A stretch of 64,000 bases of DNA from Symbiodinium sp. CCMP2592 (taxonomy: Eukaryota; Sar; Dinophyceae; Suessiales; Symbiodiniaceae). The notes under the pieces are model-generated. The model did no database searches and was not told the origin of the DNA. It saw only the letters and a list, made by a program, of their open reading frames with translations. The DNA lies in the NCBI GenBank assembly GCA_905221615.1, contig CAJNDT010002035.1, positions 243,501-307,500 of the forward strand, given 5' to 3'. The first letter of the stretch is position 1. Every line of letters begins with the position of its first letter. The position numbers were made by a program, and so were the translations under genes. Below are positions 2,825-30,921 of the stretch, piece after piece.

Positions 2825-2909
2825 CTAAGCATGTCCTTGCACTCCGAAAAGCGAAGAACCAGGCTCCTTCACGCAGAATTCTCGGAAGTCAGCATACACC
2901 GACAGCAAC
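2825..2909 (-). CDS. Hypothetical terminal mini-exon
   Basis: On the minus strand a CCCTAA-rich tract (2925-2950) ends at CTCGAG, giving acceptor AG|G at 2909. The open frame reads LLSVYADFREFC and ends GVQGHA-stop at 2825. Its varied composition is unlike the surrounding repeats. It starts with one nucleotide of a split codon. No family recognised. It may be the last exon of the gene whose exons lie at 3362-11571, but the junction phase to 3362 is not clean, so it could also belong elsewhere. Confidence 0.5.
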
Positions 2910-3361
2910 CTCGAGGCATTTTCGGGTCTAGGGTTAAGGTTTAGGGTTCTCCTAATGGTCCAACTGGCAAGCGGTTTTAACTTGGCGCAACATCCATGCC
3001 TAGGTGGCATGTCTCTGGTCACGTGAGTCAGCTCAGCATCGAGATGGCCTAAACTCATGTCTGTATGTTTCGAGTCCAAACTAAACAAGGCTATGTATGG
3101 TCACAAAACAATAGAAGCACAAAGCCGTCATGCCGACAAAAAGCCATCAGAATGACAGCTCTACAATTGCAGATAACTACGGCAGAGTTTTTAGTAGTTA
3201 CAGCAATATTAAGGAACCATAAGAAATAATATTGATAGCTATCTCCCTGGGCTTCACCTTTGCGCTTGCGCCCTTAGAACAAAACGTGATCATCATACCG
3301 TTCAATACAAGCAGAAAAACACTAAGGCTAGACTCCATATAGATCCCTTGAAGAACCCCGC

Positions 3362-3435
3362 CCTCCCCTCGAAACTTGGTCGCCGGCAGCTCCTCAATGA
3401 GCTGCACCGCCTTCGCGTGATGTCGCTCGGAGGGC
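3362..3435 (-). CDS. Hypothetical mini-exon, telomere-like intron upstream
   Basis: Minus-strand acceptor: CCCTAAAGCC-type tract then CCCAG|G at 3435. The frame reads SERHHAKAVQLIEELPATKF then RGEG, a charged, helix-like stretch. A GC donor (GAGG|GC) fits the lower end. It begins with one nucleotide of a split codon, compatible with the two left over by the exon at 5405-5477. Product unknown. Confidence 0.55.
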
Positions 3436-4458
3436 CTGGGTCGGCTTGGCTTTAGGGTTGAGGATCGGACAAAACCCCCAAGTAGCCTTTAGCAGAGCCC
3501 TTATGGTCCGTAAAAATGGGTATTTAGGGAATAGAAGGCAGTAGGGGTTAAGGGTCGAGGGTCGAGGGTTCAGGACTTCGGCTTCAGGGCTGAGGCTTAG
3601 GTTAAGACGTCCTACGCGGTGCTAGAAGGATTTGGTAAGGCTTGTATGGGCGGGAGTCTAGAAGGCGAGGCAAAAGTAAGGATTTGATGAGGCTGCAATA
3701 GCAAACTCCACAGGCTGCTATAAGGATACGGTACGGCTTTTGCAGGATATGAAAAGGCTGGTCATGAGGATTTCATGTGGCTTTTGCATAAAACTGTCTA
3801 AATAAAAAAATCCTACGCCTGTATCTATACACATGTTTGTATGTCTATGTAGGGATATAGACAAAGATATGGATGTCGGTCTTGACATAGACATAGACAC
3901 AGGTATAGGTTTAGATATAGATATACATGTACAGACACCCATGCACGCGTGCATGTGGAAATGCATAAGTAAGTGTGCGCAGGTGTATTTACGCGCATGT
4001 ACATGTTGCTACAGACCATACATGTACATAGACATGTGCGTAGCTGTACCTGTGTCCGTTTCTGTGTCTGTGCATTTGTGTAAATGCCCGTGCGCATGTG
4101 TGAATGCCTGCATGCGTGCATGTTTCAAGAAGAAAAAGCAGTCTAACACGACCACAGTCTACAGAGCAATATAGTAACATCTCATTTGTGTTCTCTTAAT
4201 TATCGTCATAGTGGCAATCATATGATGATGCAGCAACATAGTAATATCTCCGTATAGTCCTCAATATAGTAGCACTTCGAAGTGGCATGGCGAGTTCGCG
4301 AGCCGAGGAGGGGACGAGCTTACGCACAGCATCAGGGGATCTGAAGACTCCTGGCGGTGATTAGGTTCAAAGTTTAGGGGTTTAGGGTTTAGGGTTTGGG
4401 ATTTGGGGCTTCAGAGTTTAGGGGTTTAGGGGTTTAGGGTTTAGGGGCTTAGGGAGTT
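3436..4458. other. Intron-like DNA with degenerate repeats
   Basis: Holds degenerate TTTAGGG tracts (3450-3605, 4362-4458), a weak 'aaggatttgg' periodic stretch (3610-3790) and a degenerate ATAGACATAGACA/ACATGTACAT repeat (3825-4130). A possible minus exon at 4285-4350 (frame SPDAVRKLVPSSAREL) is equally readable on the plus strand, so I do not call it. Confidence 0.5.
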
Positions 4459-4587
4459 CTAGGTGTCTTGCAAGGGCTCTACAACTCTAACTACAAGCAT
4501 TCAGAAAGTTGGTATCAACACCATGGCAACCGCAGACGCAATATTGTCAAACAACGCAGCAGAAATCGTAGCTACAGCAGCAACAGT

Positions 4588-4730
4588 GATGATGGTGGTG
4601 CTAGTGGTGGTGGTGGTGGTGGTGGTGGTGGTGGTGGTGGTGGTGGTGGTGGTGGTGGTGGTGGTGGTGCTGCTGCTGCTGGTGGTGGTGGTGGTGGTGT
4701 TGGCGGTAGTGGTGGTGGTGGCGGTAACAA
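4588..4730. repeat. (GGT)n triplet microsatellite
   Basis: Nearly perfect GGT repeats with a short GCT block. All frames are open because of the repeat, so the apparent Val, Gly and Pro ORFs are artefacts. Confidence 0.97.
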
Positions 4731-4945
4731 TGGTAGTACTGGCAGTAATACTTGTAATATCCGCAGCAACAGCAGTACTACTAGGAGCAGTACTAGTATA
4801 GTAGCAGCAAGCGCAGTCCTAGTCGTGGACGCCGGCTTCGTAGTAGATGTAGCAGGTAGCAGTTGTGGCAAAAGCGAAAATTAGTGGTCATGATAGACAT
4901 TCGGGCAGCCCCGGCAGCAGCGGTGGCAGCGTTGCTAGTAAGTAG

Positions 4946-4965
4946 TCGTAGTAGTGGTAGTAGTA

Positions 4966-5052
<87 letters not shown>

Positions 5053-5078
5053 AGTAGTAGTAGTAGTAGTAGTGGTTG
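4946..5078. repeat. (TAG)n triplet microsatellite
   Basis: About 40 uninterrupted GTA/TAG units. The minus strand reads poly-Thr or poly-Tyr, which is not coding evidence. Confidence 0.97.
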
Positions 5079-5280
5079 TAGTACGTCGTGGCAGTGGAAT
5101 TATGGAACAACATAAAATATAGTAGCACTACCTAAACCTTCTGCCACAGAACTCCGAACCCCATGTCCTTCTGCAGTTGACATCGCAGACCCAGCAAATA
5201 AACCCCAAACACGAACCGATCCGAAAACCCTATACTTAAACCCTAGAAGCCCTAAACCCTACAACCTACCTTTTGTCTCG

Positions 5281-5363
5281 ATTGTAGTTCCTTTTTTGGT
5301 TAACCAGAAACTCTATTATAGGATCCTAGCCATAAAACTGGTTAACAAAAAAGGAACTACAAT
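5281..5363. mobile_element. 83 bp MITE-like palindromic element
   Basis: Terminal inverted repeats of about 26 bp: 'attgtagttcctttttt' then 'ggttaaccag' on the left, the complement on the right with one base missing, around a 30 bp AT-rich core. Too short to encode anything. It sits in an intron-like stretch between CCCTAAA-type sequence and the exon at 5405. No clear target-site duplication seen. Confidence 0.75.
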
Positions 5364-5404
5364 GGAGACTGTAGGTACAACTTAAAACCCTACACAACCC
5401 AAAC

Positions 5405-5477
5405 CTCAAGCCGAGCTCCTCTCGGTTTGGTCCCTCCAGGAACCAGGAGCCCTTGCCGCGGAGTCGGAGTCGGCAGC
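5405..5477 (-). CDS. Hypothetical 73 nt mini-exon
   Basis: Acceptor GAACAG|GC at 5477, donor TTGAG|GTTTGGG at 5405; the intron begins with telomere-like GTTTGGGTTG. One frame is open throughout: CRLRLRGKGSWFLEGPNREE then LGL, while the other minus frames look less protein-like. It starts with two nucleotides of a split codon and leaves two, fitting the neighbours at 9048-9113 (leaves one) and 3362-3435 (needs one). Product unknown. Confidence 0.6.
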
Positions 5478-5524
5478 CTGTTCGGAAGAGTCGATTTTCT
5501 TTTTTGGTTGGTTCATTGGCACAT

Positions 5525-5625
5525 TGGGGTTTGGGTTTAGGATGGTTCAGGCTTTAGGGTTTTGGGGGGGATCCTTGGGGTTTGGGGCTTGGCAATGAGG
5601 TTTAGGCTTTAGGATCGAGTTTTTT
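5525..5625 (+). repeat. G-rich telomere-like tract
   Basis: Degenerate TTTAGGG/TTTGGGG repeats, lying upstream of the minus exon at 5405-5477 (so CCCTAAA-like in gene orientation). Confidence 0.7.
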
Positions 5626-5794
5626 CTTCATTGCTTTGACTTTTCTGCGGGGCTTCTGGTGGCTGCAACTGCTCCTCACATAAGTACCAAGCTACCGGGA
5701 ACAGACAGGCGTCTGCTCGCACGGGCTCTTCTTCCTGAGCACGTCTTGACACAGGCTACCACGTCTTGACACAGACTACCCGCCTCAACCCAGG

Positions 5795-6935
5795 TCAGGA
5801 GATCTTATTCCGGAATCCAGACGCCCAGCCCAGTCCATCGCAACCAAGAAATTCTCCATCGCCTGGTTTGGAGCACTTGCTCTGGAACCAATTCCGGATG
5901 GAAGCTTGTCCGTTGGTCGAGAGCAGATGGCTTTCGGCATCATAGATGTGACACCGGACCTCCACAGACGTGTCGTCGTATATGGCCTGCAAACATCTCA
6001 AAACCAGAAGCCGGCGATTGTTTCCGCTGCACAGGGCTCGGACATTGTCCGGCCCTGTATGCAGGAAGCATCAAGGGGCTTGAGGTCTTCCACCGCAGAG
6101 GGCTTCAATGAACTGGAGATCCTTGTTGATATTGAACTGCGTGAAGCGTAAAGCCCAACCTGGCACTAGGACAGGTTGGTTGGAAGGTCTCATAGCTGGC
6201 ACAGATCGAGTGCGGAATCGTGAGATGCGCGGCATGAAAGGAGCATGCCGAGAGTGGTCCTCCGAGCGCCACCAAACCCGCCAGAACTCCCCAGAATCTG
6301 ACTGCCAGACAATTTGATCAAGGGTGCTTTCAACAAGCTGCAGAATCCAACTTCCACAGATGAACATGTCATTGTCATCACACCTCACCGACAATACTCT
6401 GTCTTGTTTGCGTTCCTCTGAAAACGTGCAAGAAGTGAACAAGTTCTGGTCTTGCGCGACGTAACAGTCACATGGCTTTCGTCGTCATCTTCCCAGTCGC
6501 CAAGAAAGGATACAGCGAGAAATGGCAGACAATTTTGTCTTCCCATCTCTTCACGGATTCAACTTCACAGCTAGAGCCAATCCGCAACCAAGTCCGGTCA
6601 CGCTGGCATACCGACTGCATCTTCCGTCGAACTGTCACTGTCCGGTGATGGTCGTCTTCCAAGTCACCCAGGAAGAAGCTCGAGCGCAATGGCCAGTTGG
6701 GCTGCACAACGTCTTCAGTCTGTGCTGACCGAACCTCGCACGTCACTTTCAGCAACACGTTTACATGCACTGCTTGAACACAGCGGAGCACTTCGAGCCG
6801 CCTTTGGTTTGGGCACAGCAGGCTCAAAATACCATCTGCCCTGCGGTGGCGGATGGTATCCATGGGCGCCGACGGCACCCGTCTGTCAATCGACAAGTCT
6901 GATGGTGTCCTCTCATAGCAGGACGACAAGGTCAC
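5795..6935 (-). other. Region with unassigned minus-strand open frames
   Basis: About 1.1 kb free of simple repeats and telomere-like tracts, with three consecutive minus-strand open stretches in different frames (5795-6001, 6071-6442, 6468-6935; up to 155 codons). Composition is ordinary but I recognise no family, and the plus strand also has open frames. It could be a decayed mobile-element gene or several exons. 6940-7280 holds nothing I can name. Confidence 0.25.
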
Positions 6936-7289
6936 GCAAGGCTGAAATTCAAGAGCGTGGGATCTGTATGTGGATGCTGCAAGTCTACACTTAACTCAGG
7001 TTCTCGTCTTTATCCCAAGGGCCTGACTTCAGGGTTCGACTTCGATTGACCACAGTCTCGAGCTACATCTCTGAGAGATGCTCAGGTCCGCCTTCCAGGC
7101 TCCCCAAACGAGCTACCGACATCTCTCGGGTGTTGAGCACAAGGCATTGCGTGATCGCAGACAATCTGATACTTCCTGCTCTGTGTTCTTACATCAGAAG
7201 CAAGCCGAAGTGAATCATCCACGTTTCTGTGCATTTGTTGTTTTGCTTGCCTGCATAACCACATCTATCAAAAAAACTATGTAGACGAA

Positions 7290-7322
7290 CACACACACAC
7301 ACATACAAACACAAACACACAC

Positions 7323-7356
<34 letters not shown>

Positions 7357-7387
7357 GTGCTACCCCCCTTGGGTTATCCACCCTTTT
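7290..7387. repeat. CA/TA microsatellite plus left arm of an inverted repeat
   Basis: (CA)n passes into (TA)n, then 'gctacccccc' and 'gggttatccaccc'. Bases 7336-7387 are the inverted counterpart of 8021-8074. Confidence 0.8.
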
Positions 7388-8074
7388 GGGGTGGAAACGA
7401 CCGAATTGGCGCATTGCTCGGGCTGCGACGGATCCCGGATTGAAGATCTCACGGATTAAAGGGGAATGCTTGGTTGATGCCTTCTCAGGAACCCTTTTAC
7501 ATCCAAAGTATACATTACATAGGTTTCCAAAATCGTTTGTAGAACCCTTATAGATCTTTTCAGAAGTCTTGTGAATCCATACTATAGAACCCTGATAAAT
7601 CCTATAAGGAACCCTGATAGAACCCTTCATGGACCCCTGCAAAGACGTATCCAGTTCAAACTCTGGACTGCACCCGCTGCTGGAACAGAAATCTCAGGCC
7701 AAACAAACCCCCTTAACTTTAACATCTAATGCAAGCGAACATGTTGGGGTATGTATAACGAATTATACCAATTCAATTAGCCTAGTGAACTCAATAGGCC
7801 TCACAGGTGGGTTGAACTTCCAAACTCTGCATGCATCGGGATTGCTCCCATTGCCCTAAACACTTGCGCAGGCATGTGCTCTAGCAGCTGTTGTATTGTT
7901 TTGGCTCTGCACACATACTAGGGTTCAGAGTATACACGTACACACATACACAGTAGTCTTTTAAACTGGTAGACAGTGAGGGGAGAGGGGGTCAAGGGAA
8001 GAATACACAGGATTTACACCAAAACTGGTGGATAACTCGGGGGGATACCATATGTATATATATATATATATGTA
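7336..8074. mobile_element. Possible 0.74 kb element bounded by ~52 bp inverted repeats
   Basis: Left arm 7336-7387 and right arm 8021-8074 are inverted copies: (TA)n, CATRTG, a run of C, a GTTATCCACC block and TTTT. The interior has no transposase-like frame. It holds a degenerate 'aaccctnataga' repeat (7480-7640) and short ORFs. Either a non-autonomous element, or two solo copies of a short repeat in opposite orientation. Confidence 0.4.
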
Positions 8075-8544
8075 GATACCTATTTAGAACACGCAAGCCA
8101 CAAGCATCTGGAGTCGGCAATCGTGCCACGCATGCATACGTCTAGACAAACGCACGACATCGACAAAGAATGCATGTATGCACATGCACGTCCCTGGGCA
8201 TCGAGTACATTGGAATGCTGGCAGGACCTGTTTCGAAATGTCTCAATCCCAGATCCTGCCTGTCTTGGCCGCAATCGCCTTCACGTGAGACCTTCAGTGA
8301 ACCGCGCAGGCATCACTCTTGAATTTGGGCAGTCACTCACGGGGGGGGAGGGGGCTGTTTTGATGACACACGACGCTTTCAAGCTACTACGTACCACTTG
8401 CCTTAGTGCTTGCCCAGAAGCCCAGCTACCATCTGGTAGGTTACCGTCCCTATATCTCATCTATATCAACCCGCTGCAGGGTTGACTGAGTTTCAAGAAT
8501 TTCAGTACAAAAGCCCTATTGAAAGCCGAAACTGCACAACCCCA

Positions 8545-9047
8545 AATCATACTCTATGAAAGCCTCGAAGCTCTGGCAGCCTACGTGGCCCCTGAAACCC
8601 CGCACCGGGAACCCTAAACCCTGACCTTAAACCCTCAGACCTTGTAGAAACCCTCCTAAAGCGCCACAAACCCTCATTAAACCGCTCTTACCCCTTACAA
8701 AGACCCAAAATACAGCTTACCCCCCCCTGTTTAAACCCTGAAGCCCTCGCTTAGCAACCCTTGTAATTAAAGCCCTGTAAAAGTATATAGGCAAACAACT
8801 CCAAACCCTTATGGTGCTTGTTAAGACCAATAGACCACAAAACCCTTACAGTCACCCTTACAAACCTCCTTAGAGGAGCCCTGGAAAGAACCCGCTTCTG
8901 CTTGCTAAGACCCCTCCTCAAAAAGAAAAGGAGCCGAAACCTAAAACCCTTAAAAAAACAAAACCGACAAAACCCTAAACGTCACACTGCACCCTAAGAA
9001 CTCTTAACCCCGAAAACCTCTAAACCCTAAGCCTTAATGCTCAGCTC
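8545..9047 (-). repeat. C-rich telomere-like tract on the plus strand
   Basis: About 500 bp of degenerate CCCTAAA/CCCTTAA/CCCTGAA. In the orientation of the minus exon at 9048-9113 it is a TTTAGGG-like intron start. No open frame worth calling. Confidence 0.8.
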
Positions 9048-9113
9048 CTAGCCCGCGTGGGCCCAGCAAACGCCGACCAACTCGGAAGATGGGATCCTTC
9101 AGCTCTCTTGTTG
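9048..9113 (-). CDS. Hypothetical 66 nt mini-exon
   Basis: Open minus frame TRELKDPIFRVGRRLLGPRG between a C-rich upstream tract (9128-9205 read on minus) and a G-rich downstream tract. Acceptor CCCGAAG|C at 9113 is weak; the lower end fits a GA donor (CTAG|GA). With these limits it starts with two nucleotides of a split codon and leaves one, matching 9545-9597 upstream and 5405-5477 downstream. The plus strand is also open here, so strand rests on context. Confidence 0.45.
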
Positions 9114-9124
9114 CTTCGGGATGT

Positions 9125-9205
9125 TGGGCTTTCGGGTTTAGGGGTTTTAAGGTTTTGAGTCTAGGGTTTGGGGTTTTTAAGGGTTTAGGATGGTTTAGGG
9201 TAAGG
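9125..9205 (+). repeat. G-rich telomere-like tract
   Basis: Degenerate TTTAGGG repeats immediately right of the mini-exon at 9048-9113, mirror-symmetric with the C-rich tract on its left. Confidence 0.75.
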
Positions 9206-9544
9206 CTCCAGTTACTGTACTTAAACAGTGGGTTACTGGGTGCATATTATTGAAGCCATCTTGTTCTTGGTTACCCAATAGCCCCTTAAAATAACGGTAC
9301 CTTTTTTTCCTAAGTACTGGAGAACCCAGTGAAGGCTGCAAACTCACCGGCTCAGGAGAGTTCGCGGTTGCAAACTGTCCCAGGTTCAATATCGACGAAC
9401 GGGCTGTTAAACAACACGGAAGCCATAGAAGACCGCTTTGATTGCAAACGGAAGTCTGCTCCTTGAGAGCTAGCTTGCAGGGTATACCAAAGCTACGACC
9501 CACTGTTTGAGGCGTCTGGAAAAATGGATCACGAAAATCCCAAC

Positions 9545-9597
9545 CCTCGCAGTCTGCCTCCTCAATGCCGATAATGAATTGGCACTGCTTCTTGCAC
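9545..9597 (-). CDS. Hypothetical Cys-containing mini-exon
   Basis: Acceptor CTGCAG|G at 9597, preceded on the minus strand by AAGCCCTAAATCCC; donor GCGAGG|GTTGGGATT at 9545. Frame: CKKQCQFIIGIEEADCEG. It opens with one nucleotide and leaves one, compatible with 10964-11011 and 9048-9113. Three cysteines, no recognised domain. Confidence 0.55.
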
Positions 9598-9714
9598 CTG
9601 CAGCGGCTAAGGAATCCGGGATTTAGGGCTTAGAGGAGGACTTAAGGCACTTGGAATTTAGGCATTTAGCGTTCGGGGATTGCACCTGCAGTGCACAGGG
9701 CTTTGGGTTGGTTC

Positions 9715-9800
9715 GTAGCACCAGCGGCAGCACCAGCACAAGCAGCAGCAGAAGCGGCAGCAGCTGCAGCAGCACCACGACCGCCACCGCCACCGCTGAC
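9715..9800. repeat. CAG-rich trinucleotide repeat
   Basis: Interrupted CAG/CAC repeats. They give Ser, Ala and Cys homopolymer-like frames on both strands, which are not gene evidence. Confidence 0.85.
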
Positions 9801-10285
9801 AGCAGCTACAGCAACAGTATTCAGTATGATAAGGCAGTACAGCCCGCAAGAATCGAGAAACATTCAAGAGCAGCGTTCATTGGCGACTTAAAGGTACCGC
9901 AGTAACAAACGTGCCGGTGGTGCTGAGATCGATCTGACCTTGGTTTAGGGCAAAATCTGCAAGAAATTTCGATACCGTCTCCGACCAGGGGGAAGAATCA
10001 ATTTTATCGCTGTATATCTTTAAAGAGGTTCAAGAGGTTCTCGAGGCTTTGTCAGCTTACAAGGCTCTTTCAGGGTTCTGATGGTTCTTGATCTTTTGAG
10101 AATGATTGAAACTATTGGTTTAACACGTCCTTGCCAGGACAAGTCTTCCCCCTGGAAACAAAAGAAGCACGACACAGGGACGTAAAAGTCAGGTGCAAAG
10201 AGATGATTAACACAAATTCAACCCTGAACGATAACATCCTGTCTTGCACCCCATGCCATAGATCCTAAACTCTGTTAACTCCCAG

Positions 10286-10362
10286 GCCCTTGCAGACCTA
10301 GCAGTGCCACACACAGAGCTCAGCCCAGAACCGATCCTGTTGTGGCTGCCGCATGCCCTGAG
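10286..10362 (+). CDS. Hypothetical plus-strand mini-exon
   Basis: Plus-strand acceptor AACTCCCAG|G at 10286 after 'cctaaactctgttaact'. The frame reads ALADLAVPHTELSPEPILLW then LPHAL, with no stop for the length of the exon; donor near CTGAG|GGGC at about 10362. It lies inside what would be an intron of the minus-strand gene, so it belongs to an overlapping or interleaved plus gene. Product unknown. Confidence 0.5.
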
Positions 10363-10739
10363 GGGCGTTGTGTTTTTCTAAGGACAACTATGGAGCCTAC
10401 ACAACTGAAACACCGAAAAAACAACTAACAAATCCTTCTCTACTACAGGCCCTAAATCCTGGCTTGTGGAACTGTGGGGTCGGGGATGGGAGCCAACCTG
10501 GAAGGTGTAGACAGTGTAGACAGAATCGGGCTCGCCCTACCCGTTTAAACCTAAAATGCCCCTCCAAACCCTACTAGAAACCTTTCAAGATCTCGGAACT
10601 CTTATACACCCTCATAGAGCCCCTACACAACCCTTCTGGAAGCCTTGCTGACTACTTAGAGAACCCTTCTGAAAGCCTCTAGTTCACGAGCAGTGATAAG
10701 TGGGGTTTATAAGCAGGGAAGCTATAATCAAAAACCGTA

Positions 10740-10950
10740 TTAGGCGACCTACAACCCTACTCGAAACTACCCATGAAAGTCTCTTTTAACCCTGGAAGTC
10801 AACAAGGTGCCTTACCCTTGTAAAGCTCCTGCGGAACCCTAAACGCTAAACCAATAAACCTAATTCCTAAACCGCACCCTCAACTCAAACCCCCAAACCC
10901 TGAACCAAAACCCCTAAACCCCTTAACCAAATAGCCCTAAACCCTATTGA
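10740..10950. repeat. C-rich telomere-like tract
   Basis: Degenerate CCCTAAA repeats, left flank of the exon at 10964-11011. A related 'aacccttctggaagcc' periodic stretch runs through 10560-10690. Confidence 0.75.
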
Positions 10951-10963
10951 CCCTGAGCCCTCC

Positions 10964-11011
10964 CTGAACTCGACAGAGGTGCCTTTCCATTCGTGGCATA
11001 GCTTCCCGATG
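10964..11011 (-). CDS. Hypothetical mini-exon, frame ambiguous
   Basis: Lies between a C-rich tract (left) and a G-rich tract (11020-11080). Acceptor ATGAAG|C at 11011 gives IGKLCHEWKGTSVEF, which leaves two nucleotides and fits the neighbours' phases. An alternative acceptor at 11017 opens a second minus frame (KHREAMPRMERHLCRVQ). The donor is not canonical in either reading. Confidence 0.4.
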
Positions 11012-11520
11012 CTTCATCTGCATAAGCCTTGAGGGCTCAAGGCCTTGTTTAAGCGTTGAGGGCTGGGGGCCTTTAATGCTCAGGGTCGTTGTTTTTTGTT
11101 TGGAGCTCGTTTTTTGGTTTGTATGACTTTCCCGTCTGCCGGAGGGCCAGAGTCGGCTGCCAAATAGGTGTGGAGATCCCAGACAAGGGTCGTTGGGGTT
11201 TTTAGGGTCTATACATGGCATGGATCGCTGGGCAAGAGCTAAACCCTTCTGGTAGGCACACAGCCTGGCCGAGGCTTGTGAGTACCGCTAGAAGCCCAGT
11301 TGCACAACTTAGTTTAAAGCCACCCAAAGGGTCCTGGGTCCTAAGTACCCATATGGGGTATGCTCATACTAAACATGCACTTCCTTCTTTTTAAAGCCCT
11401 ACTCTCAACTTTCTAGGTACTTAGGATATTTTGGATTAAGAATACAGCCCCTTAGGGTTTAGGATTTAGGGAATATGTACAATCATACACCCCCCCAAAA
11501 AAAAAACTTTAAACCAAAAC

Positions 11521-11571
11521 CTATGCTGCAGAATTCTCTCGCAGTGAACCGATGAGAACACCGACGGGTAC
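11521..11571 (-). CDS. Hypothetical 51 nt mini-exon
   Basis: Clean acceptor TGTCAATTTCAG|G at 11571 and donor CATAG|GTTTTGG at 11521. The intron continues GTTTTGGTTTAAAG, and a CCCTAAACC-type tract precedes the acceptor. Of the three frames only one is stop-free inside the exon: YPSVFSSVHCERILQH. It starts with one nucleotide and leaves two. Product unknown. Confidence 0.6.
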   Translation of the reverse strand, partial: VPVGVLIGSLRENSAA

Positions 11572-11872
11572 CTGAAATTGACAATTCAGAGACGTTTCAG
11601 GGTTTAGGTTAATGGTTTAGGAATGTTTAGGGTCTAGGATTTAGGTTTCAAAACAGACTCGAAGAAAGCGAAACACCATATACGCTTTGACCCGAGGTGG
11701 CCCTTGATGGGCCTACAAAACACCTCTTTGAATGATGTGAAGTCCCTTAAATAGTTTCAATCAACAACGCAGACGAGCTTCCTAAACAAAGCCCTAAACC
11801 CTAAAACCCTAAAAGCGAAAATCCAAACCCAAGACCCTAAAACCCTAAACGCAAAACACAAAATCCTAAAAC

Positions 11873-11940
11873 CCTGCGGAGTTGGGTGCCCGGAGGCCCA
11901 CGTATGAGTTTGCAGCCTTCCAGCCCTTTCTGCGGCCACC
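11873..11940 (-). CDS. Hypothetical 68 nt mini-exon
   Basis: Acceptor TTGCCGCAG|GG at 11940, donor CGCAGG|GTTTTAGGATT at 11873. Frame: WPQKGLEGCKLIRGPPGTQL then RR. Flanked left by CCCTAAA (11790-11872) and right by TTTAGGG-like sequence (11968-12025). It starts with two nucleotides and ends in phase 0, which does not fit 11521-11571 directly, so an exon may be missing between them or the donor choice is off by two. Confidence 0.55.
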
Positions 11941-12824
11941 CTGCGGCAACGTGTTTCATGTTTGCCGGGTGAGGGTTGAGGGGTGAGCGTTTCAGGGTTT
12001 GAGATTTGAGGGTGGGGTTTAGCGTCTGTGTTTATTGGCAGACAAGATATCTGCAACACAAGGTACATGCTGGACAATAGCTTAGTGGCTTATTGTTATG
12101 CGTCGCGGCGGACGGTCACATCGTTTCACGAGGACTTTAGACGCTCAACAGTACTTCCAAACCGCAAACACTAAATTTAGACCTTCATGCTAAGCCCTCG
12201 AACCAGAAACACAAAAAGACTAATATAGGGGTCTTCATCAAAATACTATTACTTCATTAAACCATGCCACCATTGCCGGGCTAAAGTTTCTGACAGCAGC
12301 TGCGAGGTTCTGAGCAATCTGGAGGGTCCCAAGACTTCAGGGATTCGGGATTAGAAATGAAATTTAGGAACCTGATTAAGACATCCCCTCCAAAAAATAT
12401 TAGGGTTCATAACAAAAAACCTAATAGAGGTCCAGGTTTCTTAGTCGGGTTCCTATGTCAGGGTTTCAGGTCCCTCCGAACTCTTTTTTGAAGTTAGGGG
12501 GCCGATAAGTTGAGTGCTTTCGACCCTCGAACTCATCTGAAGAAGACGATGCCAAAAAGCCAATGTAGGCGCAGATCTCTAAACTCTTTCATCTCTAAAC
12601 TCTCTAAGCATGCTCAACACCAGAACTCCTGAACCCTCAACCCTGGCCTTATCCTTTCACCTGCTTACCTCACGTGCGAGCTTTGGACGCTGCTTCTGTG
12701 ACCCGAAACCCTCCCCCCAACAAGACAGCTCCTCCCTAAAGCTTAGATCCGTAAAAGCGCGAATATAGGCGCTAACTAACCGCGGGTTGGGGGATATTAG
12801 GCTTTTTTTAACGGACTATCGGGG

Positions 12825-12971
12825 ATGCTCTATGATCTTGCTAACTACTCCGATCCCTGCAGCACGTTCTTCACGTATCGGGCTGAAAGCGATCATTATG
12901 CTCAGGTCCCAAGACCGAAACATGTTCCTATGAACCGCAGTCAAATTGACAGTCTAGCTTTGCTTGAGTGA
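12825..12971 (+). CDS. Hypothetical short plus-strand ORF or exon
   Basis: ATG to TGA, 48 codons: MLYDLANYSDPCSTFFTYRA, then ESDHYAQVPRPKHVPMNRSQ. Varied composition, no repeat content. A donor TATGCTCAG|GT at about 12906 would cut it to an exon. No recognised family; Tyr-rich like the antisense-lying exon at 13162-13272. Confidence 0.4.
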   Translation: MLYDLANYSDPCSTFFTYRAESDHYAQVPRPKHVPMNRSQIDSLALLE

Positions 12972-13062
12972 CATCAAATCGGGGTATGAAACCCAAGCTT
13001 GAGACCCTAAGCTTTGGAGAAAAATGACATGTAAGGTTTTTTCGGATCGTCTTGTGGATGCG

Positions 13063-13185
13063 TCTCGCTGCCTGGCCTTACCATAGGAAAAAAAACAAAC
13101 CGCAAACCACTAAACCCTACACCCCTAAATCCCTAAAGCCAAACCCCCAACCCCCCCAAACCGGTTCTCGCCGCCTGGCCTTACC
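13063..13185. repeat. Telomere-like tract flanked by a 20 bp direct repeat
   Basis: Copies at 13063-13082 and 13166-13185 ('tctcgc.gcctggccttacc') match at 19 of 20 bases and bracket about 80 bp of CCCTAAA-type sequence. On the minus strand both copies read GGTAAGGCCAGGC, a donor-like motif. Confidence 0.75.
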
Positions 13186-13272
13186 GTGGTAGTACGCATC
13201 GCTGCAATAACCCAAGTCATAGTAGCGGTCGTGGTACTGGGCGGGGTACTGATCCTTCGGATTGGCGGATGT
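13162..13272 (-). CDS. Hypothetical Tyr-rich exon
   Basis: Thirty-seven codons open on the minus strand: SANPKDQYPAQYHDRYYDLG, then YCSDAYYHGKARRREP. Acceptor CACTTCCCAG|A at 13272 (alternative TTGTAG|T a few bases upstream); donor CCG|GTTTGGGGGG at 13162, or ACG|GTAAGG at 13186. The intron is the usual G-rich telomere-like start. The antisense frame is an Ile/Val-rich shadow created by Tyr codons. Product unknown. Confidence 0.55.
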
Positions 13273-13905: not shown

Positions 13906-13906
<1 letters not shown>

Positions 13907-13986
<80 letters not shown>

Positions 13987-21147: not shown

Positions 21148-21299
21148 TTACAGGGTTTTCATCAAGAGTTCCGGGGCGCCTTTGTCTTCCTGCTGCTGCT
21201 GCACGCGACGCTCCATGTCCTCCGCGCCTGGTCCGTGTGCTGACTCTGTGTCTTCCTGCTGCTCAGGCTGCTCGTTCTTGGCTTCTGCCGGGATGCCGC
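21148..21299 (-). CDS. Acidic Q/E-rich protein, terminal exon (exon 4 of 4 seen)
   Basis: Acceptor TTAGTTGAG|GC at 21299; the frame GIPAEAKNEQPEQQEDTESA continues through ERRVQQQQEDKGAPEL to TAA at 21148. It starts with two nucleotides of a split codon, matching the one left by the exon at 21362-21448. The joined protein end is about 120 residues, rich in Glu, Gln and Asp and probably disordered. The 3' flank is GGGTTTA-like on the plus strand. Confidence 0.6.
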
Positions 21300-21361
21300 C
21301 TCAACTAACCACTCCAATTTGCGTTTGCACTGCAACATGCCCTTGCTAAGGGCAAGGCCAC

Positions 21362-21448
21362 TTATCGTCGCAGCACGCACTTCTTCGGCATGAGTGTCGA
21401 TGTCTCCTTGCTCCTGCGTCACTGCTTGCTCTTCCTCCGGGAGCACAC
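21362..21448 (-). CDS. Acidic Q/E-rich protein, exon 3
   Basis: Acceptor TTCGCCCAG|GT at 21448, donor ACGATAA|GTGGCC at 21362; 87 nt. Frame: VLPEEEQAVTQEQGDIDTHA, then EEVRAAT. Phases fit both neighbours (two nucleotides in, one out). The introns on either side are only 79 and 62 bp. Confidence 0.6.
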
Positions 21449-21527
21449 CTGGGCGAACGGAGGCACGTGCATTCATCCGAAATACTCGCGACCCACATGC
21501 TAAGGACGCAGCCGATCATCGTGCCAC

Positions 21528-21614
21528 CGTCTGCATCTTCGCGATGCTCCATTTCATTGTCTTCGGGTTCCTGCTGCACTTCCTGGTCCTCCTCCACGTC
21601 TTCCGCCAGATCGC
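21528..21614 (-). CDS. Acidic Q/E-rich protein, exon 2
   Basis: Strong acceptor CTTGTTTTCTTCGCAG|GC at 21614; donor GCAGACG|GTGGCAC at 21528; 87 nt. Frame: DLAEDVEEDQEVQQEPEDNE, then MEHREDAD. Two nucleotides in, one out. Confidence 0.65.
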
Positions 21615-21836
21615 CTGCGAAGAAAACAAGCCTTCTTTCCTTCTCTTTGAGGTTGCGGCCACCCTTCTCACGACCTACAAAACACTTGCAAAGGAGCTGA
21701 ACTCATTTTACCTTTACAAAGATAACAGAAAATACTGATGAGAATACTTGTAAGAACCAGAAACTGAAAGAGTGCGGACATGTTGTCATCCTAGATGCCC
21801 CTGTTAGTCCTGCAGAACAGACAACAAGCGCCCAGC

Positions 21837-21876
21837 CTCCAGCTTGCCCCTCTGCGTTCTCGCTGTCTGCATACTC
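21837..21876 (-). CDS. Acidic Q/E-rich protein, 40 nt micro-exon
   Basis: Acceptor ACGGGAGCCAG|GA at 21876 and a GC donor GCTGGAG|GC at 21837. Frame EYADSENAEGQAG, the same acidic composition as the downstream exons. It leaves one nucleotide, exactly what the exon at 21614 needs. The intron (222 bp) is GC-AG with AGGC at both borders. Upstream exons are not certain, though 22390-22545 is a candidate. Confidence 0.55.
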
Positions 21877-22263
21877 CTGGCTCCCGTGTTTCGATCGTAT
21901 GTCGAAATCAAAACAAAACAACTAGATTGTAAGAAGTTTACGACCGCACTGTGAGCTGTCAGAACAAACTATTTGATCTACCGGACGGAGAGTCCGGGCA
22001 AACGGCAAACCGCCTTGTGCCGGATTGCATGCGCATGACATGAAGCACATTGCTCGCCTAAAGGTTTAGGACCTCAAGACTTAGTGTTCTCTATCTCTCG
22101 CTCTCCAGGTATTCTGGTTCGGACTGCATCTATCTTTGGTTTGTGTTTGTCTGAACGTTAACATCACCCACCCACCCCCCACCCTGAATACCCACCAGAA
22201 CCAGTGGAGAAGCAGGAAAACCGCTGAAGAAGCAGGAACACACCAGGTGCTTGGAAGCGCGCT

Positions 22264-22365: not shown

Positions 22366-22384
22366 GCAGCAGTAGCCAGCAGAG

Positions 22385-22545
22385 TCCTAGCACTCGCAGG
22401 CAATGGTTCAGGCTTTGGAAGGGGGAAGCGTTGGGATGGGGCGTAATAAACAGGACCAGCAAGAACCATCCTTCCCCTGACCACTACCACGCCATCAAAA
22501 CCATCATCCTCCAGCGGCAGCGGAACACTATCTCTACCGGTTGCT
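22385..22545 (-). CDS. Exon candidate conserved in both duplicates (copy A)
   Basis: Minus frame SVPLPLEDDGFDGVVVVRGR, MVLAGPVYYAPSQRFPLPKP. A telomere-like tract (22555-22600) lies upstream in gene sense. Copy B keeps the frame with about five amino-acid changes. The downstream end merges into a TAC/GCA triplet repeat (22264-22365) that gives a false poly-Ser tail. Confidence 0.5.
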
Positions 22546-23608: not shown

Positions 23609-23998
23609 GTGGCAACCGGAGCATATCACATTAGATCAATCACGGCACTTGATGACGGATCAGAGTTTACTACTGGTTCGACAGCTGGAGTTAGCCGGAT
23701 GGTAATGGTCTTGCTGTGTTATGAAGAGCGCCGCATCCGCAATACAACGATGCTACTGGAAGACTTCTCAGCCCTCAATCCGAGGTTTAATCCAAATCCA
23801 AAGCTCCTCAACGCAAGTAGCATACCTGTCAAACCCACACGCAGCGCCTGCTTTAGCATTCGGATCTTGGTGGCCTCGTTCGCTGCAGCTCTTGCATGGA
23901 AAGAGAATGCGGGTGGATTGAAACTATCACACCTAGACAGGCATGTCTCAACAGTCTTTCCCTGTAGTCGATACGGTCGATACTCGAAAGCTGCATGA
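23609..23998 (+). CDS. ORF conserved in both duplicates (copy A)
   Basis: 129-codon plus ORF. The core MVMVLLCYEERRIRN..MLLEDFSALN..FNPNPKLLN is identical or nearly so in copy B (47784-48083), and indels are absent over that core. Later residues differ (for example KENAGG versus QGNSGG). No recognised family. Could be a real exon or simply recent identity. Confidence 0.4.
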   Translation: MATGAYHIRSITALDDGSEFTTGSTAGVSRMVMVLLCYEERRIRNTTMLLEDFSALNPRFNPNPKLLNASSIPVKPTRSACFSIRILVASFAAALAWKENAGGLKLSHLDRHVSTVFPCSRYGRYSKAA

Positions 23999-24662
23999 CC
24001 CCACTACACTACAATAATCCCAGTTCTAAGCCGGTTTCACAGCAAGCCTGTGGGAGAAGCCGCACAGGGAAGCCGAACAGCATCGGCTCCTGGCCAAGAC
24101 TGAAACTCTCGTGGTTTGGAGTCGAGGTTTTGTTATGGTTGGGTGGCTCCCCCTAGGCTGTTGAACACTCTTGACACCGAGACGAGTCGAACTGGTGTGC
24201 ATGACTGCCCACGGCACAAACAGGTACAAACGCACGAATGCTCCAAGTTGAGTTATGTTTTGACGTCACATCTTCAACCACCACAAGCAACGATCTCGTG
24301 GAAACTGCTTCACAGGATTCTGGCTCTAGTCTCAACGCAAATAAAGTGGACATCAAACTTACGCCCTCCTTGCCACGACTGGAAACTGCTCAAAGGTGGG
24401 AATGCACGCTCAATGCCATCCCGTTTATAACCCTTACAAACTCTGAAGCCCCCGAGGCCCCTGCTGCCATGGTCGCCATTGATCAGAATGCTCTTTGTTT
24501 GTTTGTCAAGAGGTCCCCTCACTCTTCCAATGTATAGCAATGCAACACAAAAAGGTGATAGCAATAAGCATATGCAAACGACTTCCTATGTGCTTCTTGC
24601 AAAACCAGTGGCACTGAGCTTTGAAAGTTGTGCACACAATTGCATACGACTAGCCTCTCAGA

Positions 24663-24911
24663 ATGTTGAGCTGTCAGAGTGCCTGGCAACAATGCTTGTG
24701 CGCTGCAGTTCCGAGAGTCTGCCAAGACGCTCTTGGGCCGGAAGCCATTGCGATTTTCATGTTTTCCAGACGGCTGATTCAGCCGAAGGCGGAGTTTAGC
24801 GTGCGATCATGGAAAGAACAGGGCTTCTTGATGGCTCGAGACTCGACGCCTCCCAGTGCTCCACATGAAGCCTTCATGATGGCTGCCACGCCAAGCGTAG
24901 ACGCGCTTTAA
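24663..24911 (+). CDS. 82-codon ORF intact in both duplicates (copy A)
   Basis: Plus frame from ATG to TAA, with AIAIFMFSRRLIQPKAEFSV and RSWKEQGFLMARDSTPPSAP. Copy B (48720-48968) has the same length with only a few changes (QP to EP, DS to LS). Function unknown. Confidence 0.4.
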   Translation: MLSCQSAWQQCLCAAVPRVCQDALGPEAIAIFMFSRRLIQPKAEFSVRSWKEQGFLMARDSTPPSAPHEAFMMAATPSVDAL

Positions 24912-26029
24912 AGTCTCAAAACATCAAAACCTGTTCAGATTCATCGCAAAGCTGCTTCTACGCGCTTTCTACACTGCAAGCAAGCATGAAAAAAACGCGC
25001 CTTGTGCTTCTAGTGGATTGTTTCGACATCTTGCGGCATCGAGCCGTTTTCCACAGATCGAGGCGAACAATTGAAAACCTGTCGCTTTTGAGCAGAAGGA
25101 TGACCAGCATCATGCAAAGCACGCAACGTTTCGAATAACCCTGCAAGGACACGCGAACTCGTGGCTTGTCTTTTCTCCCCCTAGCCCAGCTCACTTCTTC
25201 GCAGAGTTCCTCTGAAGCTCCACTCAGGGATGTTGGAGCGCCCTGTCTCCGGACAGCGATGCAAAGCAAATTCATGTGTAGCTGACGGTGCAGCGATGTC
25301 AAACGTCCAAGAATCCGAACATGAGGCGCTGTGAGGGTACGCGGCTTACACGTAAGTTGCCAAGAGGGCCTGTCGGCATAAGCAACATCAAACTTCCGGC
25401 CGACTCGGCAGCGGACCCTCACAGCCTCGAAAATGAGGACAAATGACGTTCTTACGTCCCGAGATGTCACGAGACCTGAGCTAACAAACCCCAGAGAAGA
25501 TCGGAGCCACTCAGAGCATGATGACGAATGTGAAGAGAGCATGAATAGCATTACGACGCAGCGGCGCCTCTCTGGGCCGGCGGGCCCGTCTCAAGGGAGT
25601 CCCAAAACCAAAATGAGGACTCCAAGGACTCATAGATCATGCGCAGGCTCTTGGGCCCGACCACCCCGCCATGTCACCAAGGGCTGAGGCCAAGAGGCTG
25701 ACGTGAACTCCACGGAAGCTATAGCACCCTTTCAGGAACCCTTGTAGCACCCTTTAGCAGGAACTCGTATAGTAATTTTAGCACCCTTAAAACAATGCAG
25801 TGGTACACAAGATTCACAGGCTTTTGACAGCGTGCTCGACAGTAAAAGAACCCAAAACACCTCAGCGGTCGCAACATGCGTCGTGCCATTGCTCTCAACA
25901 AACCTTTGGTAGTTCTTCGCTTCATGGCCACAGCCCAGTGGGAGCAAGTTCGCACGCCAGCTTGAGGCTGTGGTTCGAGATGCTAGAGTGAACTGGGTCG
26001 GGGACTGTATAATTATAGGATTCTATATC

Positions 26030-28404: not shown

Positions 28405-28513
28405 ATATGGGTAGTTGTCAAAATTAAGGTCCCTTTTGGGGTACCCTAAATTATAGGTGCCGTACTATAATTGGGACCCAAAAAGGGACCATAAGTTTGA
28501 CAACCACCCATAT
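28405..28513. mobile_element. 109 bp MITE-like palindromic element
   Basis: Terminal inverted repeats of about 36 bp with roughly five mismatches: 'atatgggtagttgtcaaa' and 'ggtccctttt' on the left, the complement on the right, around a short AT-rich core. No coding capacity. A single copy in this window. Confidence 0.7.
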
Positions 28514-28712
28514 GAGAGTCTGCAAAGCTCTTCCAGGGATTCCACACCGCGCCTGAATCCGGGGCGGAGATGGCAGCTCCTTCCTCGGAGGGTCGCAGCA
28601 GCATTCCGTTCAGAAGACCCGTACCCTTGTTTACTGGTCAGTTCTCAGTCCAGGTCACCCAAAACAAGACAACAAATAGCATAAGGGTATACTACTTACT
28701 GAACCCTAAGGC

Positions 28713-28816
28713 CCCAATGCTTGGGAACGGGGTCCCGTGCGGACCGAGATGCTGCTTCTGAGCCTCCTGACACCAGCGGGCCAGTTTTGCAATCCGGTCG
28801 GCCTGGCCGGTACAAC
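28713..28816 (-). CDS. Hypothetical 104 nt exon
   Basis: Acceptor TTGAACCCAG|GT at 28816, with C-rich telomere-like sequence upstream (28875-28900, minus sense). At 28713 a GC donor (ATTGGG|GCCTTAGGG) continues into TTAGGG. Frame: CTGQADRIAKLARWCQEAQK, QHLGPHGTPFPSIG, a balanced, helix-like sequence. It starts with two nucleotides and ends in phase 0. Product unknown. Confidence 0.6.
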
Positions 28817-29093
28817 CTGGGTTCAACACGATCCCCCTCAGTAAGAACAAGACTAATCACAGTAATGAACGGGCTGGAGGTTTGGGATTTAAGGTTCAAG
28901 GTATCCCCTCAATACAAGTACAATCAGTAAGTACAATAATACTAATTAATTACAGTCGTAAACATCGTCGCAAGAGTTGTAGCCCCTCAACTATGGGAAT
29001 AAGCAAAAGTCACAATAATCCTCAGTATCTCTTTCGAAAGAAGGCACGTACCCTGTTTTCCCCTTACTCAGTAAACGGGTACTTCTGTGACGC

Positions 29094-29321
29094 TTAGCCG
29101 CGGTATACTTTCGAGAGGTTCTCTGCCGCTGCTCTGGAGCTGGTTCCGCTGAGTGCGAAGATCACCTCGTACAACGGCCTTACTTCCCAAATATGCCACA
29201 GAAACGAACGGTCAAAAATTCGGGCTACTCCTAAATTATAATAATTGTAAATTCCCAGAACATGTACTGGAGAACTGAGCGGCAGCATGCACCAGGGATC
29301 CGTGAGATCTGCGGCCCGAGC
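29094..29321 (-). CDS. Hypothetical terminal exon joined to 29781-29860
   Basis: Acceptor GGGATGCTTCAG|GC at 29321 with CCCTAAAG about 40 bases upstream. Phase 0 matches the phase-0 end of 29781-29860. Frame: ARAADLTDPWCMLPLSSPVH, VLGIYNYYNLGVARIFDRSF, ending SKVYRG-stop at 29094. The frame stays open upstream of the acceptor to 29444, so an earlier acceptor is possible. No recognised domain. Confidence 0.55.
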   Translation of the reverse strand, partial: ARAADLTDPWCMLPLSSPVHVLGIYNYYNLGVARIFDRSFLWHIWEVRPLYEVIFALSGTSSRAAAENLSKVYRG

Positions 29322-29389
29322 CTGAAGCATCCCGATCGCCTCAAAAGACTCAAAGTCTTTAGGGCTGCTTTTTTTCTTTAGGGCTTGAC

Positions 29390-29780
29390 CCTGATCCCCA
29401 ACCCTGGAAACACCAAAAACCCAACACCCTTGCAAACCCTTCACACCAAAGCAATCTTAAAAGCCCTGAACGACCCCAAAGCCCAAAACACTACAACTGA
29501 AAAAGAAAGAACGCTACCAACACCACACAAAAAAAAACTCGAAGAGCTCGCCGGTCCTAAATGCGCAAAACCTAAACCATTACCTTAAACCCTGAACCCC
29601 AAAACCCCGAAGCCCTAAACCTGGAACCTAGAATCCAGAATCCCTAAACCCTAAACCTTGCATCCCTAAAGCCTCTAGATCCTAAAGCCCTGATTAGATC
29701 CCCAAACCCCAAAACCCTGAAACCCCAAAACTCAACCCGTAAGCCCCCAAATCCCCAAAGCCCTAAGTCCCTAAGCCCAC
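29390..29780. repeat. C-rich telomere-like tract
   Basis: Nearly 400 bp of degenerate CCCTAAA. On the minus strand it is the G-rich beginning of the intron between 29781-29860 and 29094-29321. Confidence 0.85.
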
Positions 29781-29860
29781 CTCCTCCGGAGCTTCATTGT
29801 CCGGCAACAGTCCGAAAGCTCGCTGGCAGATCCCTGGGCTCTCCACCAGCTCTTGCCAAC
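29781..29860 (-). CDS. Hypothetical 80 nt mini-exon
   Basis: Acceptor GAACCCGAAGCCGAG|GT at 29860; donor CCGGAGGAG|GTGGGCTTAGGG at 29781. Frame: WQELVESPGICQRAFGLLPD, then NEAPEE. Two nucleotides in, phase 0 out. Together with its 3' partner this is the clearest illustration of an exon cut out precisely between mirrored telomere-like tracts. Confidence 0.65.
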
Positions 29861-30025
29861 CTCGGCTTCGGGTTCAGGGGTTAGGGCTCTTAGGGCCTTG
29901 GGGTTTACCTAAGGATCCAAAAGCCTATTGTTTTTAGGGTTATACCCTCTAATTAAGGGGCCATAACCTACTATTTTGTAGGGTTTGGGGATACAGGTAG
30001 GGTTTAGGGGCTGGTGTTAAGTTTC
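29861..30025 (+). repeat. G-rich telomere-like tract
   Basis: Degenerate TTTAGGG repeats right of the exon at 29781-29860, interrupted by AT-rich bases. Confidence 0.75.
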
Positions 30026-30229
30026 ACTAGATGGGGAATGCATGTGGCTGCTACAGTATAAATCCCTGTAGAGAACCCTCAAAGGAGCCCTGCCCAAAGT
30101 GTAAACTCTTCCAAACTGTTCCGACCCCTATATCAAACCCCTGAACCCTAAGCCCTTAACCCTGAACGCCTAACTCAAACCCCCAAACCCCCAAACCCTA
30201 AACCCCCTTACAGTAGAAGCCAGAAAGTT

Positions 30230-30304
30230 GGAATATCATTATCGTAACCCCTTTATGGTAAATTATAGGGTATCCTACCCTGAAACCATATTCCAACTTT
30301 CTGG
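30230..30304. mobile_element. 75 bp MITE-like element, copy 2
   Basis: Inverse-orientation relative of 14424-14511, with the same terminal inverted repeats 'ccagaaagttggaa'/'ttccaactttctgg'. It is inserted within a CCCTAAA-type tract (30120-30345). Confidence 0.75.
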
Positions 30305-30354
30305 AGTTCCCTTTAAACCCCCTGAACCCGCAAACTTCCAAACCCCAAAAACCA

Positions 30355-30428
30355 GGTCAGTAGCTGACAATCCGGAGCCCGCTGTCACCGAAGACTAGGA
30401 CGTGCACGAGCTCGGGCCTCACAGGGTC
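30355..30428. CDS. Exon candidate between mirrored telomere-like tracts
   Basis: Lies between CCCTAAA (30305-30350) and TTTAGGG (30430-30510), exactly where exons occur elsewhere. The minus frame reads PELVHVLVFGDSGLRIVSY after CCCTGTGAG|G and could precede 29781-29860. The plus frame reads SVADNPEPAVTED after AAACCAG|G. Strand is unresolved. Confidence 0.4.
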
Positions 30429-30921
30429 TTGGGAGTTTGCGGGTTTAGGGGGTTGAGGGTTCAAGGTTTCAGGGTTTAGGGTTCAGGGTTTGGGGTTTAG
30501 GGCAAAGCTTAGGGTCTTGCTGAATGGAGTTTGTTTATGGGGTTGAATACGGCTTGTTGGTCGAGTTTTGCAGGGCTTCATCGCTCCTGAAAGTTCCGAA
30601 AACATGTATAAGCAATACGAATGATATAGGGGATTGCGGCGTATAACCTAGTACGGCCCCTGACAACCCTCTCAAGTTCCTATAAAACCCAGTCAACACC
30701 CGAAAAAATCCTACAAAGGCCTGCGCAGGAAGCCAAAGTCCTGGGCGCAGGCCGGCGACCTCAGCGTATGCGGCTTGCGGTCGTTGGGGCTTTCGGGGCT
30801 CACTGGCAGTCATCATCACCGTTAGTAGAAACCGCCAACATCTGTGTCTTGTTCCGCATCTTCGTAGGCACCGTCGACGCCTTCATCTCGATTTTCTGTA
30901 TCGCCATCATCACAATCGCCC

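Follow-up and report, generated by a model that had tools for sequence, protein, structure and literature searches.

How such short exons as those of Symbiodiniaceae are recognised is, to our knowledge, unsettled, and the locus described here raises the question of whether telomere-type repeats bear on it. The stretch analysed (64,000 nucleotides (nt), C2035:243501-307500; hereafter the window) belongs to the nuclear genome of the coral-symbiont dinoflagellate Symbiodinium sp. CCMP2592. A reading of its letters alone (the sequence-only reading) had described CCCTAAA tracts before and TTTAGGG tracts after mini-exons, and had proposed that the introns arose from, or were colonised by, a telomere-type sequence with inverted ends. 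The observation is real and unusual; it is strong in a gene for a KH-domain protein and only partly borne out in an NPHP3-like gene.

Telomere-type tracts and the exons beside them

Tract windows were defined as 14-mers agreeing with (TTTAGGG)2 (G windows) or (CCCTAAA)2 (C windows) at a minimum of 11 of 14 positions. The window contained 621 such 14-mers of the G strand and 602 of the C strand; five first-order Markov shuffles averaged 6.4 and 24.4. Both counts were far above those of the other 19 cyclic classes with identical letters (runners-up 164 and 225), the spacing of G-runs within tracts peaked at 7 nt (66 of 137 intervals), and the most frequent unit was GGGTTTA. The tracts of the window are real and heptamer-specific. 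TTTAGGG is the dinoflagellate telomere repeat (PMC11453091, a review that also covers introners and unusual splice sites, cited here from its available excerpts, as are all sources below). Interstitial telomeric sequences are tracts of the telomere repeat of a species that do not lie at the ends of its chromosomes, and the heptamer-specific tracts of a window inside a 901-kb contig are of this kind.

Over the 1.098-Gb assembly, the exact 21-mer (TTTAGGG)3 occurred 73,488 + 75,164 = 148,652 times, overlapping matches included, and its backward control 0 + 1 times. Twenty ten-kilobase stretches from many contigs of the same genome (L026-L045) were either tract-crowded (nine, with 365-707 tract windows) or almost tract-free (eleven, with 0-20); the tract-poor contigs might represent different DNA or a separate compartment of the genome. 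Many dispersed CCCTAAA-type tracts were also observed in a 12-kb 'viral' contig of IMG/VR (L003), possibly eukaryotic DNA.

Exons were located by spliced alignment of related proteins, as follows.

2139..13254, minus strand: KH-domain (KHDC4/BBP-like) gene segment, spliced alignment of P0032
13254-13180, 11940-11890, 11027-10983, 10357-10332, 9938-9924 (15 nt), 9597-9558, 9096-9053, minus strand: KH exons in gene order, first part
8291-8260, 5477-5419, 4350-4316, 3435-3388, 2909-2867, 2177-2139, minus strand: KH exons in gene order, remainder
28551..32499, minus strand: NPHP3-like gene segment, spliced alignment of P0034
32499-32343, 32230-32050, 30759-30721, 30417-30365, 29860-29781, 29339-29284, 29178-29102, 28816-28756, 28583-28551, minus strand: NPHP3-like exons

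The KH search query (bait) was a chimera of peptides taken largely from islands between tracts and matched two proteins, P0032 and P0033. Residues 142-326 of P0032, whose cluster includes an MMETSP transcript member, aligned to 12 minus-strand exons of 26-75 nt with 154 of 171 codons identical, and seven of these 12 exons had been absent from the query; the first 141 residues were not located in the spliced alignment to the window. From the 23 blocks of this alignment the 12 exons and a 15-nt block were kept, and blocks 1-9 (weak, scattered) and one 2-nt block were dropped. For the second exon, an end at 11890 was adopted, which restores the frame (11898 would need the 2-nt filler block) and leaves the polarity counts unaffected. 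Joined, the 12 exons and the micro-exon gave 184 stop-free codons. The joined product, in the version without the micro-exon, matched Pfam KH-I_KHDC4-BBP at 1.2e-24 over five exons. The micro-exon 9938-9924 encodes SDRS, compared with SDRT in P0032, shares five codons with its neighbours, and has CCCTAAACC directly upstream of its acceptor. P0034, a predicted protein of Symbiodinium sp. CCMP2456, aligned over nine exons with 155 of 236 codons identical (first nine of 16 blocks kept), and eight of the nine exons joined into a single open frame. By homology, the mini-exons of the KH gene and the exons of the NPHP3-like gene are resolved as predicted exons.

Genes of Symbiodiniaceae are reported to contain some 15 introns apiece; their exons are short and most of their donors are GC or GA (PMC10666404). 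The 20 donors modelled in the two genes were 15 GC, 3 GT and 2 GA, and all 27 introns listed for the window ended in AG|G acceptors. Because the aligner demanded AG, permitted only GC, GT or GA donors and slightly favoured G in its scoring, this agreement is consistency and not proof. The repeat permutation G|GTTTAGG had been suggested as a source of donors; none of the 20 donors reads GTTTAGG, and the sole telomere-like one is that at 29780 (gtgggcttaggg).

Strand polarity at the splice sites

Polarity was counted over 150 nt at each end of 19 introns, 11 from the KH gene (micro-exon not counted) and 8 from the NPHP3-like gene. The first 150 nt held 203 G and 0 C windows and the last 150 nt 287 C and 12 G windows; among 38 splice sides, right-strand tract windows were present at 21 and wrong-strand ones at two. 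The G-rich 5' and C-rich 3' intron ends of the sequence-only reading were thereby confirmed, within the limit that bait peptides were picked largely from islands flanked by C and G tracts. Eleven of the wrong-polarity windows came from the tracts 29564-29767 and 29388-29495, which extend into the last 150 nt of their intron. The tracts adjoining the exons, in gene sense, were the following.

13103..13154, minus strand: TTTAGGG-type tract, 25 nt past donor 13179
11967..12028, minus strand: CCCTAAA-type tract, 26 nt ahead of exon at 11940
11786..11875, minus strand: TTTAGGG-type tract, 14 nt past donor 11889
10831..10949, minus strand: TTTAGGG-type tract, 33 nt past donor 10982
9618..9710, minus strand: CCCTAAA-type tract, 20 nt ahead of exon at 9597
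9124..9205, minus strand: CCCTAAA-type tract, 27 nt ahead of exon at 9096
8934..9038, minus strand: TTTAGGG-type tract, 14 nt past donor 9052
5524..5616, minus strand: CCCTAAA-type tract, 46 nt ahead of exon at 5477
5197..5392, minus strand: TTTAGGG-type tracts past donor 5418, interrupted by a hairpin element
4364..4454, minus strand: CCCTAAA-type tract, 13 nt ahead of exon at 4350
3445..3578, minus strand: CCCTAAA-type tracts, nearest 9 nt ahead of exon at 3435
2919..2951, minus strand: CCCTAAA-type tract, 9 nt ahead of exon at 2909
30435..30507, minus strand: CCCTAAA-type tract ahead of exon at 30417
29864..30014, minus strand: CCCTAAA-type tract ahead of exon at 29860
29564..29767, minus strand: TTTAGGG-type tract past donor 29780

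In successive 25-nt bins past the KH donors, G windows numbered 14, 40, 47, 34, 13, 12 and 15, with the peak 25-100 nt downstream, and C windows were absent for 225 nt past all 11 donors, though the gene region contains 264. Upstream of the KH acceptors, C windows per 25 nt numbered 39, 54, 55, 32 and 19 (mostly within 0-125 nt) and G windows 0-1 over 200 nt. G tracts within the KH gene were confined to its upstream introns. The nearest tract windows of this gene started 14-58 nt past donors and ended 9-46 nt (once 148 nt) ahead of acceptors; the tracts themselves are not the splice sites.

Circular shifts of at least 300 nt never reached the KH value at any of four window sizes; for the NPHP3-like gene, some shifts reached the observed value at three of four sizes. 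When the gene structures were slid across the nine tract-rich stretches, the observed value was matched in 7 of 22,530 placements for the KH gene and reached in 715 of 24,578 for the NPHP3-like gene. Since the bait was chosen between C and G tracts, the flanks of bait exons tend to the right polarity by construction. On KH sides adjoining exons that were never bait, 141 tract windows were of the right and one of the wrong polarity. None of the 3,506 circular shifts equalled this result; among the 22,530 placements, 579 did.

By tract content, five of the 19 introns carried tracts at both ends, four at the 5' end only, seven at the 3' end only and three at neither; to describe all such introns as G-rich at the start and C-rich at the end was therefore too strong. 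With the micro-exon counted as an exon, the 20 introns divided into 4, 5, 8 and 3. Tracts at the two ends of the same intron were independent (5/4/7/3, Fisher p 0.65); those on the two flanks of the same exon leaned together, not significantly (7/4/1/5, p 0.13). Independent intron ends with exon flanks going together are the pattern of splice-site signals and not of introns. Introns with tracts were longer than those without (p 0.002). Among neighbouring tract pairs of the random genomic stretches, C-then-G and G-then-C orders were equally frequent (62 and 62); in the nine tract-rich stretches they numbered 14 and 7 at a spacing of 70-100 nt, and 7 and 13 at 100-130 nt.

Ten segments had been proposed as mini-exons from the letters, and four coincide with homology-supported exons: 5405-5477 with KH exon 5419-5477, 9048-9113 with 9053-9096, 11873-11940 with 11890-11940, and 29781-29860, with identical ends, as the fifth NPHP3-like exon. 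The fifth segment inside the two genes, 11521-11571, is intronic in the KH model, giving four exons out of five. Segments 17623-17688 and 18311-18390, present in both search queries, yielded no accepted homology, and 20506-20611 and 57316-57398, present in the first chimera query, no match. An alignment at 17623-17688 (9 of 20 codons) was at chance level, and a cold-shock domain at 18311-18390 appeared in Pfam (5.5e-4) only with seven added letters, the exact letters giving nothing up to 0.01.

An ab initio polarity test over the nine tract-rich stretches gave 16 mirrored cases against 3 at score 10; its result was not used because scrambled codon models reproduce much of the bias. Pfam searches of selected open pieces from four and more of these stretches found DUF829 and F5/8 type C domains, which offered too few splice sites. 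On another contig (L031, 3150-4090), three coding-like plus-strand pieces were each preceded by a CCCTAAA tract and followed by a TTTAGGG tract; the pieces had no Pfam match.

Tract-free genes and other features of the window

Two further genes were modelled.

59334..62381, minus strand: BNA4-like monooxygenase (kynurenine 3-monooxygenase-like) gene, 7 exons and 6 introns
21256..21880, minus strand: acidic-protein gene segment, modelled with P0036-P0038 (4 exons, 3 introns)

The open frame 60764-61573 (minus strand) of the first matches BNA4 of Symbiodinium sp. CCMP2592, and spliced alignment of that protein gave 310 of 310 codons identical over five exons; the last two exons were taken from P0002-P0004 only. 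The BNA4-like copy may be decaying, because the public protein (312 amino acids) stops early relative to the 446-amino-acid paralogue P0003. P0036-P0038 were used only for the acidic-protein gene, and blocks of P0035, P0037 and P0038 elsewhere in the window were counted as chance.

A tandem unit of about 1.6 kb (37570-41881; 37570-40276 and 39175-41881 at 98%) contains short telomere-like tracts, and a stretch of about 3.6 kb that begins beside the acidic-protein exons (21883-25484) is directly duplicated at 45966-49542 with 91% identity. Hairpin elements with long inverted arms, resembling miniature inverted-repeat transposable elements, lie at 5285-5370, 28405-28515, 44185-44420, 14420-14525 and 30215-30310; those at 5285-5370 and 30215-30310 seem younger than the tracts, because they interrupt them. 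Scans of the window for tRNA and Rfam families gave no matches, and two protein scans of viral contigs no relatives; for 17 contigs carrying three heptamers the comparison covered tract layout only.

Origin of the pattern and comparison with known systems

The favoured explanation, given a rough probability of 0.45, is that existing introns were colonised near their splice sites by telomere-type repeats, whose orientation was kept as splicing tolerates or uses it. It builds on what was directly observed: tracts in the window, two genes with their exons and the polarity beside these, and a repeat that is abundant across the genome. Heptamers scattered genome-wide in huge numbers would settle in pre-existing spliceosomal introns close to splice sites, having arrived perhaps by telomerase at breaks, slippage or transposition, and those retained would be TTTAGGG-type inside the 5' end and CCCTAAA-type ahead of the 3' end. 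Splicing would hold this orientation. To judge from the letters, CCCUAAA runs are free of AG and could supply C-rich and branch-point-like CUAAA stretches ahead of the acceptor, and each UUUAG|G unit would be a ready dinoflagellate AG|G acceptor, liable to be used if upstream of the true one; a reversed tract ahead of an acceptor would then activate TTTAG|G acceptors. GGG runs past the donor could enhance, from within the intron, the splicing of very small exons that lie between long introns, a role that intronic G-runs have in other organisms, and recognition of such runs as an aid to small exons, also suggested by the sequence-only reading, is possible.

Several observations weigh against colonisation held in place by splicing. 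No tract window occurred in the six BNA4-like and three acidic-gene introns, nine in total, and the tract feature is thus limited to some genes or introns. The KH exon models are homology-based, the supporting transcript coming from a relative and not from the locus. NPHP3-like sides adjoining never-bait exons had 0 right and 11 wrong windows, the support in that gene coming only from bait exons, and the bait-free subset counted by sides was only 7 right to 2 wrong. Polarity beyond bait exons rests on one gene, KH; because the bait-free sides of the NPHP3-like gene fail, the claim is mainly a one-gene claim, helped by the four in five segments picked blind. Tract-bearing introns did not in general have a longer AG-free stretch upstream of the acceptor, exclusion of AG from the neighbourhood of acceptors leaves the absence of C tracts past donors unaccounted for, and the ab initio right-polarity fraction was 0.72 in real data and 0.52-0.73 over 25 runs with scrambled codon scores.

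It is unlikely that interstitial repeats simply lie anywhere in the non-coding DNA of tract-rich regions, the KH polarity being a chance run aided by bait choice. The crowding of about half of the random stretches (9/20), the 715 placements reaching the NPHP3-like value, the equal orders of neighbouring tracts and the lack of polarity on that gene's bait-free sides fit such clutter; the rarity of the KH value among placements, the bait-free KH sides and the lack of C windows past KH donors do not. A wider proposal, that DNA of telomeric origin, dispersed through telomerase or the repair of breaks, is a general genome-wide splice-site signal of the lineage, defines mini-exons and may also have created introns, is considered unlikely. 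Intron birth is distinctly unlikely as the source: telomerase would have added a cap to one side of a double-strand break in coding sequence, or to each side, before the ends were rejoined, and the insert would have become an intron. Two joined caps would give exon-(TTTAGGG)n-(CCCTAAA)m-exon, and the polarity seen in the letters would be that of a head-to-head telomere fusion; healing on a single side would yield one-ended introns, like 11 of the 16 tract-bearing ones, telomeric repeats are described at repaired mammalian breaks (PMC2246262), and a telomerase origin was proposed for plant telo boxes (PMC3022908). Against this, tracts rarely reach the exon, as the KH distances of 14-58 and 9-46 (once 148) nt show, the repeat does not form donors, and the introns are hundreds to thousands of nt long and hold other sequence.

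Insertion into exons of a transposable element with telomere-like inverted ends, subsequently spliced out as an introner, is very doubtful. Introners with terminal inverted repeats are known in Symbiodinium microadriaticum (PMC9860276), and the polarity at the intron ends is indeed inverted. An operational rule used for dinoflagellates (PMC10666404) asks for inverted repeats 8-20 nt long, no more than 30 nt from either intron end, and for boundaries flanked by direct repeats of 3-5 nt. When exact matches alone were counted, one of 18 introns of the KH and NPHP3-like genes had the inverted repeat (intron 29780-29340, with 8 nt). Direct repeats of 3-6 nt were present in most of the 27 introns, stemming from the common AG|G context, and were not in excess as target-site duplications (mean 3.11, shuffled pairs 3.00, p 0.27). 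Introners in general form families of near-identical introns at many positions; all-against-all comparison of these introns of the window gave seven short matches and no family; six matches, of 26-54 nt, lay within or near heptamer tracts, between introns or pairs, and one was a self-hairpin. Most tract-bearing introns had a single tract. The earlier proposal stands in part: colonisation by telomere-type sequence beside mini-exons, with mirrored polarity, is borne out strongly in the KH gene, and birth of the introns from such an element is not, since non-telomeric letters separate exon and tract and neither a direct-repeat excess nor an intron family was found among the window introns. Pairing of each intron's two ends, which would draw its splice sites together, is highly improbable. 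Complementary tracts were present at both ends in 5 of 19 introns, and hairpins from paired ends were proposed for Amoebophrya introners (PMC7789003); the mean duplex energy of own ends (-67.3) was no stronger than that of ends of different introns (-71.6), most introns bear a tract at one end only, and C and G tracts flanking an exon could equally pair and loop the exon out.

Among known systems, the introners of Symbiodinium, Amoebophrya and Prorocentrum (PMC9860276, PMC7789003, PMC10666404) likewise give dinoflagellate introns with inverted end sequence; the introns of the window differ in having no excess of target-site duplications and no families, and in showing the inverted repeat of the operational rule in one of 18 only. 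Interstitial telomeric sequences at repaired mammalian breaks (PMC2246262; related papers PMC8537989 and PMC7215372) are also telomere repeats inside chromosomes; intron-end polarity is not described for them in the available excerpt, and the Symbiodinium tracts are degenerate and far more numerous. The Eimeria heptamers AAACCCT/AGGGTTT (PMC4287421, PMC9131526) are alveolate, very numerous, interspersed, non-coding and arranged in bands; strand-aware placement at splice sites is not described in the excerpts of these two papers. Plant telo boxes (PMC3022908) are short telomere motifs tied to gene structure and enriched in the first two introns, and differ as single, promoter-linked motifs, mainly of 5' untranslated regions, and not splice-site tracts. 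In the excerpts of PMC7023079 and PMC10235076, TTTAGGG is mentioned only as a telomere repeat or probe.

In the excerpted literature searched, no account was found of telomere-type repeats with a strand polarity at splice sites; novelty is provisional. A polarised telomere heptamer at splice sites, if true, would link exon recognition, and perhaps the growth of introns, with telomere-type DNA, and exon-flanking, if true, would show genome-wide as an excess of CCCTAAAC-gap 60-90-GTTTAGGG over GTTTAGGG-gap 60-90-CCCTAAAC. G-run enhancers after the donor and a C- or pyrimidine-rich tract before the acceptor are general splicing features, and the present tracts resemble them in being G-rich past the donor and pyrimidine-rich ahead of the acceptor; those features are a matter of general composition, whereas the Symbiodinium tracts consist of one repeated telomere heptamer.

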